Assembly: GCA_902500775.1 (NCBI GenBank)
Contig: CABVRZ010000004.1
Coordinates: forward strand, 62,001-126,000
DNA length: 64,000 nt
Origin: an uncultured Nitrospira sp.
GTDB taxonomy: Bacteria > Nitrospirota > Nitrospiria > Nitrospirales > Nitrospiraceae
Direction of reading: 5' to 3'
Shown here: positions 38,012 to 49,203 of the stretch, in pieces
How positions within the stretch are numbered: position 1 is the first letter of the stretch
How the letters are laid out: each line of letters opens with the position of its first letter
Program-made: the position numbers and the translations under genes
The notes under the pieces: model-generated
Databases searched by the model: none
What the model saw: only the letters and a program-made list of their open reading frames with translations
What the model was told of the DNA's origin: nothing

Positions 38012-38911
38012 CTAGCTCAGTAATTCACGTCGGGCGGTGCGGACAAGCGCAAGGACGGCCGGGTGCTTCAGCCGCCGTTCGACGGTGATTGCGTAGAAGT
38101 GCTGGATGAGCTCGTCCAGCCGTCCCACCACCTGTACCTGATACTGGCGACAGATCTCTTTCTCGATCACGGTGGCGCCGGGGAAGATCCCATGGCCGTC
38201 CTGACCGAAGGCTTTGAGGGTCGCACTGTCGTCGAATTCACCGACTATAATGGGGTGCAAGCCATGGTTCACCATCCATTGGTCCATCAACCGGCGGAGC
38301 ACGGCTGTGGAGGTGGGGAGGAGAAGAGGTGCATCGCGCAGTGAGTCGGGGAAGTCTCGGCGGTAGCGAGCTGCCAGTGTTGCCGTGGCAAACAACGTCA
38401 CCCCTGATTCACCCAAGGGGTGATTATACGTCTGCTCCTTCGCGCCCGGTGGAGCGGGGGTGTCAGCGATCACCAAGTCTGACCGATGGGCGGCCAGATC
38501 GGCCAGGAGCTGGCGCAGTTTATCTTCCTGGCAGATCAAGCGCGTCGGGCGATACGTCTTGAGGGCCGACTTGAGGAGTTGGGTCGCCAATGGTTTGGGG
38601 ACTGCGTCAGCAATACCCACGACTAAACGCGTCGGCTGTCCATCGGTTTTTCCTTTGACGGTGTTGAGGAGTTCTTGCCCGGTCGCGAAGATGTCGTCCG
38701 CATACTTAAACACGAGCTGGCCCATTTCCGTCAGCACGAGACGCCGGCCCGTTCGAATAAATAACTTTTCTCCAAAGGTATTTTCCAAGAGGTGAATCTG
38801 GCCACTTAGGGTGGGCTGCGCCAAGCGAAGTTCTTCAGAGGCCTTGGTCACGGTTCCATGTTTCGCTACGGACCAGAAATATAGGAGATGATGGTAGTTC
38901 AACCACTCCAT
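38012..38911 (-). CDS. nhaR: LysR-family regulator, NhaR-like
   Basis: 299 residues. The N-terminal winged helix MEWLNYHHLLYFWSVAKHG strongly resembles NhaR, the sodium-responsive activator of nhaA. The rest is a periplasmic-binding-protein-like effector domain. No Na+/H+ antiporter gene is nearby. Instead it is divergent from the triple-TolC export operon, with a LysR-type inverted repeat between them, so that operon is the likely target. Confidence 0.88.
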   Translation of the reverse strand: MEWLNYHHLLYFWSVAKHGTVTKASEELRLAQPTLSGQIHLLENTFGEKLFIRTGRRLVLTEMGQLVFKYADDIFATGQELLNTVKGKTDGQPTRLVVGIADAVPKPLATQLLKSALKTYRPTRLICQEDKLRQLLADLAAHRSDLVIADTPAPPGAKEQTYNHPLGESGVTLFATATLAARYRRDFPDSLRDAPLLLPTSTAVLRRLMDQWMVNHGLHPIIVGEFDDSATLKAFGQDGHGIFPGATVIEKEICRQYQVQVVGRLDELIQHFYAITVERRLKHPAVLALVRTARRELLS

Positions 38912-39064: not shown

Positions 39065-40615
39065 ATGGTCGCTCTGTGGTTGGCTTTACTGCTTATGTTC
39101 CCGGCCGTAACGATGGCGGAACCGATAACCGATGATAGCGCGTTAAAGTCCGTTTCTTCTCGAACCGCCCCCCTTACCATTGGAGAAGTGCTGGCTCGCA
39201 TCGAATTGACACATCCCTTGCTTCAGGCGATGGGTGCCGAGCGAACGAAGGCTCGGGCAAAAATCCTCAAGGCGCTCGGGGCCTGGGAACCACAGGTCAA
39301 GAACTATACACAGGTCGAACGGTATACTACGTGGAATCTCACGACGGCGTTCGATATTCCGAGTCAACATACGACGGGCTATGCCGACAGTACCATCCAG
39401 GTCGGACATCCGTGGGGCTTCACGGTTGAAGGCGGGCTCCGCAGCGGCTTTGGGGATAAGGGCAACGCCAGGATTGCTTATCCTCCAGATCTACTGGGCA
39501 CGTATCCTCAGCAGCATCTCTACTACGGTGGGGTGTTCCATCTGCTCCGAGGCTTCATGGTCAACGATGAGAATGCCCAGTTTCAACAGGCCGAACTCGC
39601 TGGGCCGCAGGCGGAGATCAAAGTTGCGCAGAAACGGCAGGATCTCTATCTCGCCGGTGCCGTCCAGTACTGGGATTGGCAGGTTGCTGTCAAGCAAGCT
39701 GAGGTGGTGAAGCGCGCCTTGGGCGTCGCCGAAGATCGGTTGGTTCAGATTGAAGGGTTGGCCAAGGGTGGGCGGGTCGCGCCACTCGATGTTGTTGAGG
39801 CGAACCAAGAGGTTCAAAAGCGGAGACAGGCAGCGATCGCTGCCCAGCGGAAGACTGAGTATGAGCAGTACAAGCTGTCCCTCTTTCTCTGGGAGAACGG
39901 TGAGCCGGTAACGCCGCGTCCGGAATGGGCGCCGGAATTCCAGGGTGAAACGCCACTTCCGACCAACGAAGAAGTCGCGGCCTATAAAGTAGAGGCGAAG
40001 GAAATACGGCCAGAAGTGCGGGACCTCTACATCGAAGCCAAGATCAACAATATCGACATCAAGCTCGCGAAGAACAAACTCCTCCCAAAATTAGATCTTG
40101 AGGGCGGACCAACCAAGGGCGCTGCGGACTGGGTCGTGGGGCTTGGGTATCGAGTTGGCGTGCACTTGGAAGTACCGGTGTTCCAGCGGGAAGGGCGGGG
40201 GAAGGTCATGGCTGCGGAAGTGGCTCAGCAACAACTGGCATTGAAGCAGCTCTACACCGAGCAGCAAGTCAGCTTCGACGTGGATAACTGGCTCTCGGCC
40301 CAAGTGCGGTCCAGGGACCGGGTGACGGCGGCGACGGAAGCCCTTCGTTTGGCGAAGACGCTGGAAGAAGGCGAACGCACGAGGTTTAACATGGGGGCTA
40401 CCACCGTGTTATTCGTGAACCTCCGTGAGCGCCATGTGGTGGAGTCGGCGTACCAGTTGTATCGGGCACAAGCAGACTATGCCGTCGCGCGTGGAGGAAT
40501 GCTGTGGGCTAGGGGCGTGCTAGCAAAGCCTTGGCCGACGGAGTCCCTGGCGCAATATGGCAATCCGCTGGCGGCGGTGGGCATGAACGGCTACAAACAA
40601 CCGGGCCGCGATTAA
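39065..40615 (+). CDS. TolC-family outer-membrane channel, copy 1
   Basis: 516 residues. A signal peptide (MVALWLALLLMFPAVTMAEP) precedes two long helical-hairpin repeats with a beta segment in each, the TolC layout. The residues LGAWEPQVKNYTQ and YWDWQVAVKQAE are shared with copies 2 and 3. The extracellular/first barrel segment (about 80-155) differs strongly among the copies. It heads a tandem of three paralogues read toward an ABC exporter. Confidence 0.9.
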   Translation: MVALWLALLLMFPAVTMAEPITDDSALKSVSSRTAPLTIGEVLARIELTHPLLQAMGAERTKARAKILKALGAWEPQVKNYTQVERYTTWNLTTAFDIPSQHTTGYADSTIQVGHPWGFTVEGGLRSGFGDKGNARIAYPPDLLGTYPQQHLYYGGVFHLLRGFMVNDENAQFQQAELAGPQAEIKVAQKRQDLYLAGAVQYWDWQVAVKQAEVVKRALGVAEDRLVQIEGLAKGGRVAPLDVVEANQEVQKRRQAAIAAQRKTEYEQYKLSLFLWENGEPVTPRPEWAPEFQGETPLPTNEEVAAYKVEAKEIRPEVRDLYIEAKINNIDIKLAKNKLLPKLDLEGGPTKGAADWVVGLGYRVGVHLEVPVFQREGRGKVMAAEVAQQQLALKQLYTEQQVSFDVDNWLSAQVRSRDRVTAATEALRLAKTLEEGERTRFNMGATTVLFVNLRERHVVESAYQLYRAQADYAVARGGMLWARGVLAKPWPTESLAQYGNPLAAVGMNGYKQPGRD

Positions 40616-40638
40616 CCCGGCACAAGGAGCATCCTTCG

Positions 40639-42186
40639 ATGGTCGCTCTCTTACTCGCGATTCTGATCTTACTGCCAGTCGTGACACTGGCGGAACCGGT
40701 GCACGATTCCAGCGCGTTGAAGGCGCAGTCTGTCCGCACTGAACCTTTGAGCATCAGCGAAGTGCTGGCTCGTATCGAGTTGACGCATCCGCTGCTTCGG
40801 GCGACCGGGGTCGAACGGATGCAAGCCCGGGCAAAAATTCTCAAGGCGCTCGGAGCCTGGGAGCCGAAGTTCAAGAACCGGACCGAGGTCGACCGGTATC
40901 AGACTTGGAATTTCTTGGCCTTCGTGAATGAGACGACGGGGGGCTTTAACGACAGCACGCTTGAGATGGGGCATCCTTGGGGTTTCCGGATCGAAGGCGG
41001 CATCCGCAACGGGTTTGGAGATCGCACGAACCAAGGCGCCCATGCATACCTTCCGAATGATGGACTGCTCTTCTGGCATAACCAGCAAATGATCGTCGGT
41101 GGGGAGGCTCATCTGCTGCGGGGCTTCATGATGAACGAGGAGTACGCCGACTTCCAGAAGGCCGAACTCGCGGGGCCGCAAGCGGAGATCCATGTCGCAC
41201 AGAAACGACAGGACCTCTACCTCGACGGAGCTGTGCAGTACTGGGATTGGCAGGTAGCGGTCAAGCAAGCCGAGATTGTGAAGCGTGCGTTGGCTGTGGC
41301 TGAAGAGCGGTTCACGCAGGTCGAGGGGCAAGCCAAACGTGGGCTGGCTTCGCCGCTTGATGTCGTTGAGACCAACAAAGAGGTGCAGGTGCGGCGAGAG
41401 GCGGCCATCGCTGCCCAGCGGAAGGTGGAGTATGAGCAGTACAAACTGTCCCTCTTTCTCTGGGAGAACGGTGAGCCGGTAACGCCGCGTCCGGAATGGG
41501 CGCCGGAATTCCAGGGCGAAACGCCACTCCCGACCAAAGATGAGATCGCGGCTTATAAAGTAGAGGCCAAAGAAGTGCGGCCAGAAGTGCGGGAGCTCTA
41601 CATCGACGCCAAGATCAACAATATCGACATCAAGCTCGCCAAGAACTACTTGCTCCCGAAGTTGGATTTTAAAGGGGGGCAAATGGACGCGGGCGCAGAC
41701 TGGAATGTGGGCGTGGGATATCGGATGGAATCATGGTTTGCGATGCCGGTGTTCCAGCGAGCAGGGCGAGGAAAGGTCCTGTACGCAGAAGCGGACCAAC
41801 AGCAATTGGCTTTGAAACAGCTGTATACCGAGCAACAAGTCAGCATTGATGTCGATAACTGGCTCTCGGCTCAAGTGCGAGCTCGCGACCGCGTGAAGGT
41901 GGCGACGGAAGCACTGCGATTGGCCAAGACGCTGGAAGAGGGCGAACGGACTCGATTCAATATGGGCGCGAGCACCGTGCTCTTTGTGAACATCCGGGAG
42001 CGCAACGTGGTGGAACAGGCGTACCAGCTGTATCGGGCGCAAGCCGACTACGCAGTATCGCGTGGAGGTATGTTGTACGCGAGGGGCGTGTTGGCGAAGC
42101 CGTGGCCTGACAGTGAGTTGGCGAAGTACGGCAACCCGCTGGCCGCGGCTGGTATGAACGGCTTCAAACGACCTGGGCGCGATTAA
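40639..42186 (+). CDS. TolC-family outer-membrane channel, copy 2
   Basis: 515 residues from the ATG at 40639, which follows AAGGAGCATCCTTCG. The signal peptide is MVALLLAILILLPVVTLAEP. The protein is closely similar to copy 1 over the periplasmic helices. A 71-bp stretch (41446-41516) is identical in DNA to 39875-39945 of copy 1. The gap from copy 1 is 23 bp. Translation upstream to 40531 would overlap copy 1 and was rejected. Confidence 0.9.
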   Translation: MVALLLAILILLPVVTLAEPVHDSSALKAQSVRTEPLSISEVLARIELTHPLLRATGVERMQARAKILKALGAWEPKFKNRTEVDRYQTWNFLAFVNETTGGFNDSTLEMGHPWGFRIEGGIRNGFGDRTNQGAHAYLPNDGLLFWHNQQMIVGGEAHLLRGFMMNEEYADFQKAELAGPQAEIHVAQKRQDLYLDGAVQYWDWQVAVKQAEIVKRALAVAEERFTQVEGQAKRGLASPLDVVETNKEVQVRREAAIAAQRKVEYEQYKLSLFLWENGEPVTPRPEWAPEFQGETPLPTKDEIAAYKVEAKEVRPEVRELYIDAKINNIDIKLAKNYLLPKLDFKGGQMDAGADWNVGVGYRMESWFAMPVFQRAGRGKVLYAEADQQQLALKQLYTEQQVSIDVDNWLSAQVRARDRVKVATEALRLAKTLEEGERTRFNMGASTVLFVNIRERNVVEQAYQLYRAQADYAVSRGGMLYARGVLAKPWPDSELAKYGNPLAAAGMNGFKRPGRD

Positions 42187-42211
42187 TTCGGCAACAAAGG
42201 AGCATCCTTCT

Positions 42212-43807
42212 TTGATCCTTCTCTTGCTGTTCTCGCTGATGATGGTGCCGGCGGCTGCACTGGCGGAGCCGGTGATCGACTCAAGTGTCGTGCAGGCTCA
42301 GTCGGCCCGTACCGCTCCCTTGACCATTGAAGAGGTGCTGGCCAGGATTGAGTTGACCCATCCGCTCCTCCGGGCAACTGGACTGGAGCGGGCGCAGGCT
42401 CGGGCGAAAGTTCTGAAAGCGTTGGGCGCGTGGGAGCCAAAGGTTCGGAACGAGATCGAGTACGATCGCTATCAAACGTACAATCTGACGAACGTGAGCG
42501 GTGCGCCGAATCACTTAAGTTCTGGCTATGTGGATACCTTTCTCAAAATTGGGCACCCTTGGGGGTGGGAGATCTTCGGCGGTATCCGCAACGTCTTTGG
42601 TGATCATGCAACGCTCAGTGGAGTCAGCACCCTTACGTTCGAACGTAACGTCCAGAGTCCCGGAGTGGGGGTCCCTCAAGACTTTCAACTGTTCTATCCC
42701 CAGCAAATGGGCATCGTTGGGGGAAAGCTTAATCTCTTGCGGGGATTCATGGTCAACGAAGAGTTTGCCCAATTTCAACAGGCGGAACTCGCCGGGCCAC
42801 AAGCAGAGATCAAAGTGGCTCAGAAACGGCAAGAGCTCTATCTCGCAGGGGCCGTTCAATACTGGGATTGGCAAGTCGCCGCCAAGCAAGCCGATGTGGT
42901 GAAGCGAGCACTCGCCGTTGCGGAAGAGCGTTATCGCATGGTCGAGGGTCGAGCCAAAGCCGGGGCGGTCGCTCCGATTGACGTAGTCGAAGCCCGAGAA
43001 GAAGTTCAGCGGCGTCGAGAAGCTGCCATAGCCGCGCAACGGAAGGTGGAGTACGAACAATATAAACTCGCGCTCTTCCTCTGGGAAAACGGTGAACCGG
43101 TGACGCCACGACCTGAGTGGGCCCCAGAATTTCAGGGAGAAACCCCCTTGCCAAGTGACGAGGATGTGGCGGCCTTCAAGGTGGAAGCGACGGAGGATCG
43201 GCCGGAGGTTCGCGATCTGTATGTTGAAGCCAAACTGAACAATATTGAAATAAAACTGGCGAAGAATAGTCTGCTTCCTAAGTTCACGGTTGAGGGTGGG
43301 CCTTCGATCGGCTCGATCTATTGGGTCGGAGGGGTTGGTTACCGAGTGGCAACTTTATTCAGTATGCCACTGTTCAATAGAGGCGCCAGAGGGAAAGTCC
43401 TTCACGCAGAAGCTGAGCAGGAACGGCTGGCCTATAAACAAGCCTACACGGAGCGACAGGTGCAGATCGATGTGGACAATTGGCTGTCAGCCCAAGTGCG
43501 GGCCCGAGACCGAGTGAAGGCAGCGACGGAAGCCCTGCGGTTGGCCAAGACGCTGGAAGAGGGCGAACGCGCCAGGTTTAACATGGGAGCAACAAGTGTC
43601 CTCTTCGTCAACCTACGAGAGCGTGCAGTGGTCGAAGCGGCGTATGAGCTCTACCGTGCCCAAGCCGATTATGTCGTGTCGCGGGGAGGGATGCTCTGGG
43701 CAAGGGGAGCCCTATCGAAGCCAGTGGCGGAAAATGTGCTGGCAAAGTATGGAGATTCTCTGCATTCTGCGGGATCATCGGGACGTAAGCAGGTAGGACG
43801 CGACTAG
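42212..43807 (+). CDS. TolC-family outer-membrane channel, copy 3
   Basis: 531 residues with a TTG start (42212) after AAAGGAGCATCC, the same ribosome-binding sequence as copy 2. Signal peptide MILLLLFSLMMVPAAALAEP. The first barrel segment is about 15 residues longer than in copies 1 and 2. The helical domains are conserved, but at DNA level this copy is more diverged. 141 bp separate it from the ABC gene. Confidence 0.9.
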   Translation: MILLLLFSLMMVPAAALAEPVIDSSVVQAQSARTAPLTIEEVLARIELTHPLLRATGLERAQARAKVLKALGAWEPKVRNEIEYDRYQTYNLTNVSGAPNHLSSGYVDTFLKIGHPWGWEIFGGIRNVFGDHATLSGVSTLTFERNVQSPGVGVPQDFQLFYPQQMGIVGGKLNLLRGFMVNEEFAQFQQAELAGPQAEIKVAQKRQELYLAGAVQYWDWQVAAKQADVVKRALAVAEERYRMVEGRAKAGAVAPIDVVEAREEVQRRREAAIAAQRKVEYEQYKLALFLWENGEPVTPRPEWAPEFQGETPLPSDEDVAAFKVEATEDRPEVRDLYVEAKLNNIEIKLAKNSLLPKFTVEGGPSIGSIYWVGGVGYRVATLFSMPLFNRGARGKVLHAEAEQERLAYKQAYTERQVQIDVDNWLSAQVRARDRVKAATEALRLAKTLEEGERARFNMGATSVLFVNLRERAVVEAAYELYRAQADYVVSRGGMLWARGALSKPVAENVLAKYGDSLHSAGSSGRKQVGRD

Positions 43808-43948: not shown

Positions 43949-45625
43949 ATGAACGAACCTCAGGGCGAAGGAAACCAAAACCTGTTCCAAGCATTGATGA
44001 GGCAGCTGTCGGTGGCCATGCGGGCAGAGAAAAAGATTATGAGCTTGCTCATTTCTTACGCCGTGGCTGTTGGATTTTTCTCTCTTATCATTCCATTGAC
44101 TGTGCAGGAATTGGTCAGTACCTTTTCCTACGCGGTTCAGCCGGTCATGATTTGGACCTTGACAGCGATCATGTTCTCGGTGCTGCTGTTCGTGGGACTA
44201 TTTAAGACCTTCCATTTTTACGCCGTGGACGTAGTCCAGCGGCGACTCTTTGCGCGGGTCGCCGTGGCGATGGTTGAACAGCTTCCACGCAATCGCTTCA
44301 AAGGGGCACGGCCTGAGCTAGCAAACTACTTCATCGAAACAGTCTTTATGCAGCGGGCGCTTTCGACGCTGCTCATCGATCTCTTGAACGTGGTAGTAGG
44401 TGGAACTGTCGGGATGATCATGTTGGTCGTCTATCACCCATATTTTCTGGTTTACAATCTGCTACTCATGACGGGGTTTGCAATCACGTTTTTTGTACTC
44501 TCCCGTGGTGCATTGAGGACGACCCTGGCGATGTCTCATGCCAAGTACGACGTCTTTAATTTTATCCAAGAAGTTTCAAGGAATGCGCTGCAATTGAAGG
44601 CGACCGACAGTAAGCCGTTTCTCATCCAGAAAGCCGACGAACTTGTTAGCCGATACGTCGAAGCTCGGAAGGCGCGCTTTACCGTGCTCGTGCGGCAGTA
44701 TGTCGGGTCCGTGGGAGGACAAGCGGTCGCACAGGCTGGTGCCATCGGCATCTCAGGCACGCTCTTGGCTGCCGGACAGTTGACACTTGGGCAGTTGGTC
44801 GCGGTCCAGGCGGTTGTCAGTGCGTTGGTCATCAGTTTTGACTCTTTGATCAAGAACATGGGCTTTGTGTACTATTTCTTTGCCTCCCTGAGCCATCTTG
44901 ATGAGGTGTTTGGGCAGGAACAGGATTATGTCTCCGCAGAGTCTGTCGTGGCCTTGCCGAAGCATTTGGGTCAAGGCGTTCGCGTGACCTGCAAAGGGGT
45001 CAGTCTCGTTCATGGTGGTCAGGCAGTGTTCGATGGCTTCAACCTTGATGTGGCACCTGGTGAGAAGCTGGGGATTTATGCCAAAACAACGGCTGCGAAG
45101 ACCTCACTGGCAAGAGTGCTTGGTGGTCTTGAAGTGCCAACTGGTGGAGTCGTGCAGTACAACGGAGTCGATCTTCGCTACATTGATGCTGGGGCGATCA
45201 ACCAGTGCCGCAGTGTCATGATTGACTCACAGTTGTCCTTGGTCAAAGGCACCATCGAAGAGAATATTGTGATGGGCCGGTCCTATGTCACCTATGACGA
45301 CTTGAACTGGGCACTTCGTTTTACAGAACTTGAAGAGGATATTGAAGGTCTTCCACGCGGGGTGAAGTCCGAGATCTCCTCGTTGGGTGAGTCTGTATCG
45401 CCGACGCATGTTGTGCAGATCCTTCTGGCTCGTGCCATTCTCGGACGCCCGCAAGTGCTCGTATTTGATGGGTTGATCCACTCGCTTGAGCCGTCATTGC
45501 GTGAACGGATTTTACGTCGGCTTTGCTCCAAGGACGAGGCCTGGTCGGTGATCTTTGTGTCGACCGATCCTAACCTCACGGATCATGCTGATCGTCGTAT
45601 TATGTTGCATCATACACATGCGTAA
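43949..45625 (+). CDS. ABC exporter (type I secretion) with degenerate ATPase domain
   Basis: 558 residues. The N-terminal half has the membrane helices of a type I secretion exporter (for example IMSLLISYAVAVGFFSLIIPL) without a peptidase domain. The C-terminal half has the ABC fold, but the motifs are altered. The P-loop is A378-K-T-T-A-A-K384-T-S386, without its glycines. The signature LSGGQ is replaced around S484-P-T-H487. The Walker B ends D507-G508, so the catalytic glutamate is missing. The switch histidine position is T539. The frame is intact and the fold retained, so it is not a simple pseudogene. It lies between triple TolC genes and an HlyD gene. Confidence 0.85.
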   Translation: MNEPQGEGNQNLFQALMRQLSVAMRAEKKIMSLLISYAVAVGFFSLIIPLTVQELVSTFSYAVQPVMIWTLTAIMFSVLLFVGLFKTFHFYAVDVVQRRLFARVAVAMVEQLPRNRFKGARPELANYFIETVFMQRALSTLLIDLLNVVVGGTVGMIMLVVYHPYFLVYNLLLMTGFAITFFVLSRGALRTTLAMSHAKYDVFNFIQEVSRNALQLKATDSKPFLIQKADELVSRYVEARKARFTVLVRQYVGSVGGQAVAQAGAIGISGTLLAAGQLTLGQLVAVQAVVSALVISFDSLIKNMGFVYYFFASLSHLDEVFGQEQDYVSAESVVALPKHLGQGVRVTCKGVSLVHGGQAVFDGFNLDVAPGEKLGIYAKTTAAKTSLARVLGGLEVPTGGVVQYNGVDLRYIDAGAINQCRSVMIDSQLSLVKGTIEENIVMGRSYVTYDDLNWALRFTELEEDIEGLPRGVKSEISSLGESVSPTHVVQILLARAILGRPQVLVFDGLIHSLEPSLRERILRRLCSKDEAWSVIFVSTDPNLTDHADRRIMLHHTHA

Positions 45626-45673: not shown

Positions 45674-47119
45674 ATGGCTAGCCTAGGTCGCGGTCATGAT
45701 AATAGCGGTGAGCGTGCTTTGGTTCAGCGAGGGGTCGGCTTGGAGGCGATCACGATTGAACAGGGCCCCGCATTGGCGAAGTTGCCTTGCTGGCAGGCTG
45801 TACAAATACCAAGAGGGATGTTCACGGCGTCTCGTGCCATTCTTACGATTCTCCTCTTGTTTCTAATTGTGCTTGAGTTTGTTCCTTGGACACAAACGAT
45901 CAGTGCCAAGGGAAAGGTTTCTGCGTACACTCCCTATGATCGGCCTCAGAATATTGAGTCTCGGATCACAGGACGGGTGAAAGCGTGGCATATTTATGAA
46001 GGTGTCAAGGTCAAGAAGGGTGAACTCGTTGGAGAGTTGGAAGACTACGATCCGACCTTCATGGCGCCGGAGATCCTTCCACTGTTCGAACAGCGGAAAG
46101 AGGCATTGGAAAAAACCCGTCAGGCGGCATTGGCCAGAGCAGACCAATTGAACAAACGGATCGGTGAAATGAAAAAATTGGTCCAGGCTGCAGTGCCTTC
46201 AGCCGAAGCTCGTGTGGTTGAGGCAGATAATAAGGTGCGTGAGGCTCAGCAGAAGGTTGAACAGTACAAGATCGATGTGCACACAGCTCAGCTCAATGTC
46301 GACCGCCATCGACAACTGGTCCGGGATGGGTTGGTGTCACAACGTGAACTTGAGTTGACGATTCAAACTGAAATCGGTACCAAGGCTGGTTTACAGGCGG
46401 CACAGGCCAGTCTTCTGGCGGCGGAGCAGGCCCGGTCATCGTTGAGCTTCGGTCGTGATCAGATCTCGGCGGATGTGAACCAGAGGTTGATGGACGCGGT
46501 TGCATCACGCGATTCTGCTGTAGCGGAAGCTGCCAAGGCTACGGAGTCGCTGGCTGATATCGCCTATCGCCAACAGGGAGTGCAACAACGAATTGAAGCC
46601 GCGAAACTCTACGCGCCTATGGATGGCACTGTCGTCAAGATGGCGAAGGTTGGTATGAATGAAACTGTGAAGCAGGGAGAGAATTTGGTCACTATTTCTC
46701 CTCTTGCTTCTGATCCCGCCATTGAAATGGTGGCTGAAGGGTTGGATTCTCCACTTCTGAAAGCTGGGCGTAAGGTGCGGATCCTCTTTTTCGGGGTTCC
46801 GGCTATTCCCTTGCCGGCATGGCCAGGCTTAATGGCTGGCACCCGTGGAGGCATCATCAAAGTGGTCGACCAGATCGATGATGGCAAGGGCAATTATCGA
46901 TTCTGGGTCGTCCCAGATCCCGATGATTCTCAGCCATGGCCTGATCAAGCCCAGGTGAGGCAAGGAACAAAGGTGTTGGGTTGGGTCATTATGAATCGGG
47001 TTCCGCTCTGGTACGAACTCTGGCGGCGGTTTAACTTCTTCCCGCCGGACTATATGGAACGTGAGCCGAGTCTGTTTGAAATGTTTGCGCCAAAGGTGGC
47101 AGCACCTGGCGCTAAGTAA
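45674..47119 (+). CDS. HlyD-family membrane fusion protein
   Basis: 481 residues. One membrane segment (about 55-75, AILTILLLFLIVLEFVPW) follows a 50-residue cytoplasmic part. The first half-lipoyl motif is in ITGRVKAWHIYEGVKVKKGEL, followed by a long coiled coil (about 130-310), the second half (APMDGTVVKMAKVGMNE) and a C-terminal beta domain. It should bridge the ABC exporter and the TolC-like channels. It follows the ABC gene by 48 bp. Confidence 0.92.
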   Translation: MASLGRGHDNSGERALVQRGVGLEAITIEQGPALAKLPCWQAVQIPRGMFTASRAILTILLLFLIVLEFVPWTQTISAKGKVSAYTPYDRPQNIESRITGRVKAWHIYEGVKVKKGELVGELEDYDPTFMAPEILPLFEQRKEALEKTRQAALARADQLNKRIGEMKKLVQAAVPSAEARVVEADNKVREAQQKVEQYKIDVHTAQLNVDRHRQLVRDGLVSQRELELTIQTEIGTKAGLQAAQASLLAAEQARSSLSFGRDQISADVNQRLMDAVASRDSAVAEAAKATESLADIAYRQQGVQQRIEAAKLYAPMDGTVVKMAKVGMNETVKQGENLVTISPLASDPAIEMVAEGLDSPLLKAGRKVRILFFGVPAIPLPAWPGLMAGTRGGIIKVVDQIDDGKGNYRFWVVPDPDDSQPWPDQAQVRQGTKVLGWVIMNRVPLWYELWRRFNFFPPDYMEREPSLFEMFAPKVAAPGAK

Positions 47120-47207: not shown

Positions 47208-47428
47208 CCGCCTCCAACCGAGGGTGAGCCAACCTAACTAGGTCAGTCCTAGTGGCCTAACGCTTCTATAGCTTCATGGGTCAGTCGCCAGGGATCCTCT
47301 GTCTCGATAGGAATCCAGACGAGCCGTCTTGCTTAGATTGGCTTGACCCGGTCTGTTGGACTCGCTATGGTGCCGCCATCGGGTCCGAGAATGGTGTCGA
47401 TTCTCTCAAATCAAAGGAGGCTGAGGGT

Positions 47429-48019
47429 ATGGGCAAGATCAAACTGCCAAGACGACAGTCTCTAGGTCGCATACGTGCCAACAGGATGAATGGCCAGCCG
47501 CTGGTTGGTGTGCTGGGAGGTAGTAAGTCCGATTTCCCCATTCTTGAAAAGGCCGTGCAGATTTTGGCTCAATTAGGTATTCCACATGAATTTCTCGTCG
47601 TGTCGGCACATCGCACACCCGACCGACTCTTTGACTATGCAACCACAGCCTCAGAACGAGGTGTCCAAGTCATCATTGGCGGTGCAGGCGGGGCGGCTCA
47701 TCTTCCGGGAATGCTTGCAGCGAAGACTCATCTCCCAGTGATTGGTGTACCAATTCCAACAGAAAACCTCCGTGGACTGGACTCATTACTCTCCATAGTC
47801 CAGATGCCCAAAGGAGTTCCCGTGGCCACTGTGGCCATTGGCGGAGCCGAAAATGCCGGGCTTCTCGCAGCACAGATCCTCTCTGGGCGCTATCCCGAAA
47901 TAGCGGAGCGCCTCATTGCCTACCGACGTATTCAGACAGAGACGGTTCTCCAGTCCCCTGAGGCGAAGGGAATCGGTCGTGCTATGACTAAAGTCTCAAT
48001 TTCCAAACAACGACCGTGA
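47429..48019 (+). CDS. purE: N5-carboxyaminoimidazole ribonucleotide mutase PurE
   Basis: 196 residues. Rearranges N5-CAIR to CAIR in purine synthesis. Motifs include [19 protein letters not shown] and [12 protein letters not shown]. The ATG at 47429 has AAAGGAGG upstream; an extension to 47276 was rejected. A start at MNGQPLVGV would trim a 19-residue basic leader. The TGA stop overlaps the purK ATG. Confidence 0.95.
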
Positions 48020-49203
48020 TGCAGCCGATATTTGAACCGGGTTCAACCATAGGTGTGCTTGGGGGTGGGCAACTCGGAGCAATGTTTACTGAAGCGGCTC
48101 GCTGCATGGGGTATCAGGCCGTCGTCTGGGATCCAGATCCCAATGCACCGGCCCATCGAGTGGCCGATCAATCTTTGTCCACACCTTTCACTGACCATGA
48201 GACCCGGGAACGGTTCGTCGAGATGGTCCAAGCCATTACCCTGGAATGGGAGAATATCCCGACCGATCTCTGCGAGTGGCTTGAGCAGCGTCGACCGCTG
48301 CGTCCCTCAGGTGCCATTCTGCGAGTCCTTCAAGACCGTCTTGAGCAGAAGCAGTTCTTATCGTCCTTGTCGCTTCCCGTTGCTGAGTTTGCTGAAGTCC
48401 AATCTGGGCAACAGCTTCATCACGCGGTCAATCGGCTTGGTTTTCCATTGATATGCAAAACGGCGAGAAATGGTTACGACGGGAAAGGTCAATGGCTGTT
48501 TAGACAGCCATCAGATGTCACACAGTTCGAACAGATCCTCGCCACAATTTCTTCAGGGGCTCGGTGGATTGCTGAACAGTACATCCCCTTTGTGCGAGAG
48601 CTGTCGGTTCTAGTGGTTAGAAGTGCGAGTGGCGAAACTCGGGTCTATCCTGTCGTCGAGAATCGACATGAGCAAGGGGTGTTGCGCGTGAGTCTAGTCC
48701 CAGCCCCCATTTCTTCTCTTGATGCAGAGACGGCACGTGAGCTTTCCGTCGGAGCGGTGGTCGCGTTGCAGGGAGTCGGAGTCTTCTGTGTCGAACTCTT
48801 TCAGATTCAAGACGGTCGCTTGTACATCAATGAAATTGCGCCGCGTCCGCATAACTCTGGTCACTACACGTTGGATGCTTGTACCGTTTCCCAATTTGAG
48901 CAACAAGTTCGAGTGACCTGTGGTCTTCCGTTGGGGGAAGTCAGACTACTGTCCGCTGCCGCTATGGTGAATCTGCTGGGTGATGAGATAGCCGCGGTGA
49001 CGTCTGGCCAGGGATGCCGCGAGATCTTTTCTACCCCAGGTGCCTCGGTGCATCTCTATGGCAAGCGGGTGATTCGTCCGGGAAGAAAGATGGGGCATGT
49101 GACGTTTACGGCCTCCGACGCAGAAATCGCAGTTGCATCGGCTCAGCACTTCATGTCGCTATTCCATAACCCGCCCTCTGCTGGTCCAGTCCCATATAGA
49201 TAG
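48016..49203 (+). CDS. purK: N5-carboxyaminoimidazole ribonucleotide synthase PurK
   Basis: 395 residues. ATP-grasp enzyme that makes N5-CAIR from AIR and bicarbonate, feeding PurE. The N-terminus [17 protein letters not shown] and the ATP-grasp segment [15 protein letters not shown] are diagnostic, and [14 protein letters not shown] closes the active site. GTG (48016) and ATG (48019) are adjacent starts; TGATG coupling with purE favours the ATG. Confidence 0.95.

Follow-up and report, generated by a model that had tools for sequence, protein, structure and literature searches.

The window, the whole 64,000-nucleotide stretch of Nitrospira DNA analysed here, contains a type I secretion-like operon with the gene order TolC-TolC-TolC-ABC-HlyD. 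Three consecutive genes on the forward strand encode TolC-family outer-membrane proteins (39065..40615, 40642..42186 and 42212..43807; PF02321 at 86, 94 and 103 bits, respectively), the second being assigned an ATG start picked within a longer open reading frame. They are followed on the same strand by a gene for a 558-residue ABC-exporter half with a fully degenerate ATPase domain, whose frame is intact from ATG to stop (43949..45625), and by a gene for a HlyD-family periplasmic adaptor (45674..47119) that carries an RLS-type TolC-binding motif, RHRQLVRDGLVS, at residues 211-222. The RLS/RLT motif of such adaptors has been defined previously (PMC3391258), and the RLS motif is present in HlyD both here and at the loci described below in which the ABC protein lacks its nucleotide-binding domain (NBD). 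A LysR-family regulator is encoded on the reverse strand (38012..38911), divergent from the operon, and falls in one sequence cluster with a LysR protein (PF00126, PF03466) adjoining the NBD-less operons. With an ABC protein, a HlyD-family adaptor and a TolC-family channel in one locus, three TolC-family genes lying upstream of the ABC gene and the HlyD-family gene downstream, the gene content expected of a type I secretion system is present, as an earlier reading made from the sequence alone had proposed. No cargo gene was recognised in the loci examined.

The three tandem TolC-family paralogues 5' of the ABC gene (39065-43807) are found in the window lineage, and most other operons of the family have one. 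PurE and PurK genes lie 3' of the operon (47276-49203) in many Nitrospira; they also occur near the cassette in some Planctomycetota loci (both genes in L136 and L143, PurE in L134) and are absent from most. A SecA-associated HlyD/TolC locus considered for comparison (PMC4452313) contains no ABC transporter and is a different system.

ATPase motifs and predicted fold of the ABC protein

The NBD spans residues 340-558 (44966..45622, forward strand, as are all features of this gene) and was delimited with the AlphaFold model and a match to PF00005 (ABC_tran), which is still recognised at 34 bits against a cut-off of 25. The motifs were read from an alignment to canonical exporters that the same genome encodes. 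The former Walker A segment, AKTTAAKTS (45080..45106), runs A378-K-T-T-A-A-K384-T385-S386 against the consensus GxxGxGK[ST], with the glycines gone and the lysine and hydroxyl residue retained. V483-S-P-T-H487 stands in place of the LSGGQ signature (S484-P-T-H487, 45398..45409), the Walker B segment VLVFDG (45455..45472) has a glycine, G508, after D507 where the catalytic glutamate is expected, and the H-switch region (S538-T539-D-P, 45560..45571) has T539 in the histidine column. In the D-loop, which reads HSLEP, aspartate is replaced by glutamate. Alignment and model confirm the sequence-only reading that the frame and fold are intact and the ATPase motifs degenerate, and its residue numbers were correct.

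The AlphaFold model has a mean pLDDT of 76.8, with NBD blocks mostly at 82-93 and parts of the transmembrane domain (TMD) below 60. It resembles ABC exporters throughout: the top Foldseek match is HlyB of the HlyB/D complex (8dck), comparison with 3qf4_A gives a Z score of 25.2 (rmsd 4.1, 415 residues), and the NBD matches that of ComA with a Z score of 24.2 (rmsd 2.4 Å, 216 residues). In the model, the helix that follows the P-loop begins at residue 381 and so precedes K384 by three residues, a hint that the phosphate loop is shortened. Judged by the model and its PDB matches, the fold expected of an ABC exporter is present, with a six-helix TMD and an ABC-type NBD in one chain; judged by the alignment, the protein fails all of the motif criteria (Walker A, LSGGQ, catalytic glutamate and switch histidine). 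Its ancestry and fold are thus those of an ABC exporter, while the class-defining residues are missing. Like the type I secretion ABC proteins HlyB, PrtD and LssB, it is a half-transporter encoded with HlyD-family and TolC-family proteins, but it differs from them in having no catalytic NBD motifs and no C39-like domain, and it falls outside all three curated families, with NCBIfam scores far below the cut-offs (PrtD, 86 versus 510 bits; LssB, 103 versus 693 bits).

Conservation and motif decay across the family

A match at E < 1e-30 was found in 66 of 99 related genomes. Among 41 close orthologues (group A), residues A378, A383, K384, D507, G508, S538, T539, D540 and P541 are invariant and T385 is retained in 38. 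As the same substitutions recur in 41/41 orthologues, they reflect neither chance nor sequencing error. In this group dN/dS is highest in the TMD (0.074), lower in the NBD (0.042) and lowest in the motif segments (0.029), and the more divergent group B (50-62% identical) gave 0.127 and 0.132; these are Nei-Gojobori counts with dS near 1, so that absolute values are approximate. Since the NBD evolves more slowly than the TMD and its altered residues are fixed, the domain is being retained for some purpose, altered residues included. Comparison of the orthologous sequences, which is the extent of the evidence here, shows the degenerate NBD to be under strong purifying selection, with the fold and the HlyD and TolC partners retained. 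Canonical orthologues together with a high dN/dS would have marked the gene as a pseudogene, and that objection fails.

Profile and pattern searches identified 167 distinct family members, fragments counted. Ten genomes from other phyla showed a wide gap between the family member, with E values of 4e-145 or better, and the next-best exporter, at 6e-49 or weaker, which indicates that the family is sharply bounded; it was not found in other sampled classes of the same phylum. In a TMD tree the family is monophyletic, on a single long branch (UFBoot 100). The Nitrospirales clade is firm (support 100), as is the grouping of the Bacteroidota members with a canonical early clade (support 100). The canonical outgroup is not monophyletic in this tree, and support is weak (31-50) for the deepest divisions of the family.

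When the motifs are compared across these groups, a graded series emerges. All are canonical in each of the five members of the early clade (Blastocatellia, Armatimonadota, Vampirovibrio, RI_106). Members from Planctomycetota, Myxococcota, Acidobacteriota and the delta-type group retain K384 and G378 in 21/21 cases, the glutamate in 5/21 and the histidine in 2/21. Among the 123 Nitrospirales homologues with an NBD, G378, G381, E508 and H539 are each found in none, with G383 still present in 14 (S-x-G-K-T types), and the NBD-less members nest inside a degenerate clade. As far as can be read from alignment and tree, these states show that the ATPase motifs decayed stepwise within one ABC-exporter family, from canonical, to Walker A without most of the glutamates and histidines, to all gone, to NBD-less. 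The simplest order of loss is that of the catalytic glutamate and histidine first, then the P-loop glycines. The Bacteroidota (n=2) and Novosphingobium (n=2) members are degenerate through other substitutions, and on this tree the Bacteroidota loss would be separate from the Nitrospirales loss.

Several further features of the family were observed. Members are usually encoded beside HlyD and/or TolC genes, an arrangement that recurs in several phyla with varying gene order. The two Novosphingobium relatives are plasmid-borne and adjoin HlyD and TolC genes, and their differently degraded NBDs lack the P-loop lysine. An extra N-terminal segment of ~130-160 residues is present at eight loci, and many non-Nitrospirales members have it. 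Eight loci of other Nitrospirales contain tandem family ABC pairs, both degenerate, that are possibly heterodimers, and in a further Nitrospirales subclade (seven loci) the family ABC genes stand alone, with no HlyD or TolC gene adjacent, in a different conserved neighbourhood.

Relatives that lack the nucleotide-binding domain

In three Nitrospirales species the family member is 337-346 residues long and ends just past the TMD. No NBD remnant was found 3' of the TMD in the three separate assemblies, which rules out frameshift artefacts as the source of these short reading frames. A family NBD in trans was not found in the genomes of the three species either; the candidates were rejected, the best matches being ~35% identical, in open frames of 584-615 aa, with a counterpart in an NBD-keeping genome. 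Two more short matches were left out of the NBD-less count, one a first gene copy in frameshifted pieces (G382) and the other at a contig end (L133). The predicted structure of an NBD-less member (pLDDT 81.4) matches exporter TMDs with Z scores of ~22 (rmsd 3.3-3.5, 306-311 residues).

The three NBD-less proteins are 78-92% identical and have dN/dS ratios of 0.23-0.29, compared to 0.10-0.16 for HlyD and 0.14-0.17 for TolC of the same operons. The NBD-less TMD is therefore still under purifying selection, more loosely than its HlyD and TolC partners, and, being more relaxed than these, may be decaying. When NBD-less and NBD-bearing sisters are compared, conservation is about equal along the transmembrane helices and falls chiefly at residues 205-228, where the two identity values are 0.79 and 0.53 among NBD-bearing proteins and 0.34 and 0.15 between groups. 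The C-terminal linker has also drifted in the NBD-less proteins, and conservation is reduced to a lesser degree at the N-terminus and around coupling helix 1. Residues 205-228 lie between TM4 and TM5 in the predicted models, the location of coupling helix 2, which docks on the NBD in ABC exporters; this region is conserved in the window protein (44561..44632).

Like the engineered constructs LmrA-MD and MsbA-MD, the natural NBD-less members are exporter TMDs without an NBD, and their length can be compared to that of MsbA-MD, which ends after N346 (PMC4979069). They differ from the constructs in that they sit in a HlyD-TolC operon, are under selection and have no ion-coupling data. The window protein differs from LmrA-MD-like exporters in retaining its own NBD.

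In the three NBD-less species a HlyD-TolC-TMD cassette is flanked by a LysR gene on one side and a dabB-dabA operon on the other. The same dab operon occurs in sister genomes with no cassette beside it (DabA confirmed, PF10070); the cassette is present or absent as one unit. Beyond the LysR gene in the cassette-free sisters lies a second partial DabA-like stretch (L216:14808-16330 and L217:14965-16410), whose profile-match region contains an internal stop. The dabA and dabB genes also adjoin the cassette in a distant locus with a canonical ATPase (L137), and DabA is encoded upstream at locus L050. A link to inorganic carbon through DabA/DabB and PurE/PurK was considered and not used; the DabA of the window's own genome is on another contig, and most Planctomycetota loci have neither.

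Proposed export without ATP hydrolysis and its alternatives

The loss of ATPase function is strongly supported, if only by sequence data, and the energy source of export is an inference. In the absence of biochemistry, we consider the window protein to be, probably, the inner-membrane unit of a three-part TolC-HlyD-ABC export complex in which ATP is no longer hydrolysed. In the inferred mechanism the coupling helices would hold the NBD, which would now serve as a scaffold for dimerisation or docking, and a substrate, not identified, would pass from the TMD through HlyD to TolC, with an ion gradient or the substrate's own gradient as the driving force. There is no direct evidence of ion coupling in this family; NBD-truncated MsbA (PMC4979069) and NBD-truncated LmrA (PMC6155054) both transport ethidium with proton coupling. 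The sequence-only reading had left a choice between an active partner encoded elsewhere and a gated scaffold that makes poor use of ATP or none. The uniformly degenerate orthologues and the NBD-less species favour the second, although "gated" exceeds the data. A wider proposal is put forward tentatively, as plausible while falling somewhat short of probable: that an exporter lineage was converted stepwise from an ATP-driven pump to an ATP-independent (ion- or gradient-driven) TolC-HlyD inner-membrane unit, ending in species that discard the NBD, with the ATPase lost more than once (in Nitrospirales, in Bacteroidota and probably in Novosphingobium).

The ABC-exporter fold can serve a non-pumping role, as in SUR1/SUR2, which the NBD-less structural model also matches, and both SUR and CFTR are gated by ATP binding. 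The window protein could, by analogy, be a conduit whose NBD binds ATP or another ligand without hydrolysing it, with the TMD path opened or closed by that binding. Group A keeps K384, D507 and, in most members, T385, so that binding of ATP cannot be ruled out. The NBD is also more conserved than the TMD in this group, K384 and D507 being invariant and the changed segment S-T-D-P itself fixed, and such strong conservation could mean a ligand-binding or regulatory role, not mere scaffolding. However, SUR keeps nucleotide binding, whereas in the window protein the motifs are lost. The P-loop glycines are gone, K384 itself is missing in a sister family clade (CSTETARH, CPTPSTGH) and three species dispense with the NBD altogether, which leaves this explanation unlikely, though credible.

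A protein that moves nothing, and that positions HlyD and TolC for another inner-membrane pump or as an envelope tether, would need no energy, and HlyD and TolC are indeed conserved together with the ABC protein. Conservation of the entire TMD, membrane helices included, nevertheless matches that seen in canonical relatives, in the NBD-less members too, which suggests that the translocation path is kept; we regard a role as assembly anchor as rather unlikely.

Ordinary ATP-driven export could persist if the degenerate half paired with a canonical half encoded elsewhere and borrowed one or two sites from it. Exporters with one degenerate half are common (PMC7756269), and the transporters covered by that review still have one canonical site, which the window protein cannot supply. 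TM287/288, TmrAB and TAP share with it an ABCB-type fold and non-canonical motifs, but they keep one complete ATP site, and none can be assembled from the window operon. In heterodimers each composite site joins motifs from both halves; because Walker A, Walker B, the H-switch and the signature are all lost on one side, neither site would be complete. A second canonical ABC half was not found in ~100 family loci, with the exception of one 27%-identical match ~6 kb away in a non-Nitrospira locus (L129/L240), other pattern matches being chance or family members. Tandem copies are both degenerate, and NBD-less relatives exist without an NBD in trans. Several canonical exporters are encoded elsewhere in the source genome, so that a search for a co-occurring complete half comes out negative for the neighbourhood and not for the genome, and the active partner of the sequence-only reading, while not formally excluded, is improbable. 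Finally, a pseudogene or decaying gene, suggested by the number of motifs lost, is already refuted for the window lineage by intact frames and dN/dS of 0.04-0.07 across 41 species, and next to no likelihood remains for it.

No paper describing this ABC family was found in the open-licence literature. ABC transporters are defined by their hydrolysis of ATP, and this type of Nitrospira pump appears to work without it. A label of "ABC transporter ATP-binding protein" assigned from fold or Pfam match only is probably misleading for the whole family, in several phyla. The argument over ion-driven work by ABC TMDs has rested on engineered LmrA and MsbA truncations, and in the NBD-less relatives evolution seems to have produced the NBD truncation itself. 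With canonical, intermediate, dead-NBD and NBD-less members present in otherwise similar operons, the family offers matched natural proteins with which this question can be tested directly.
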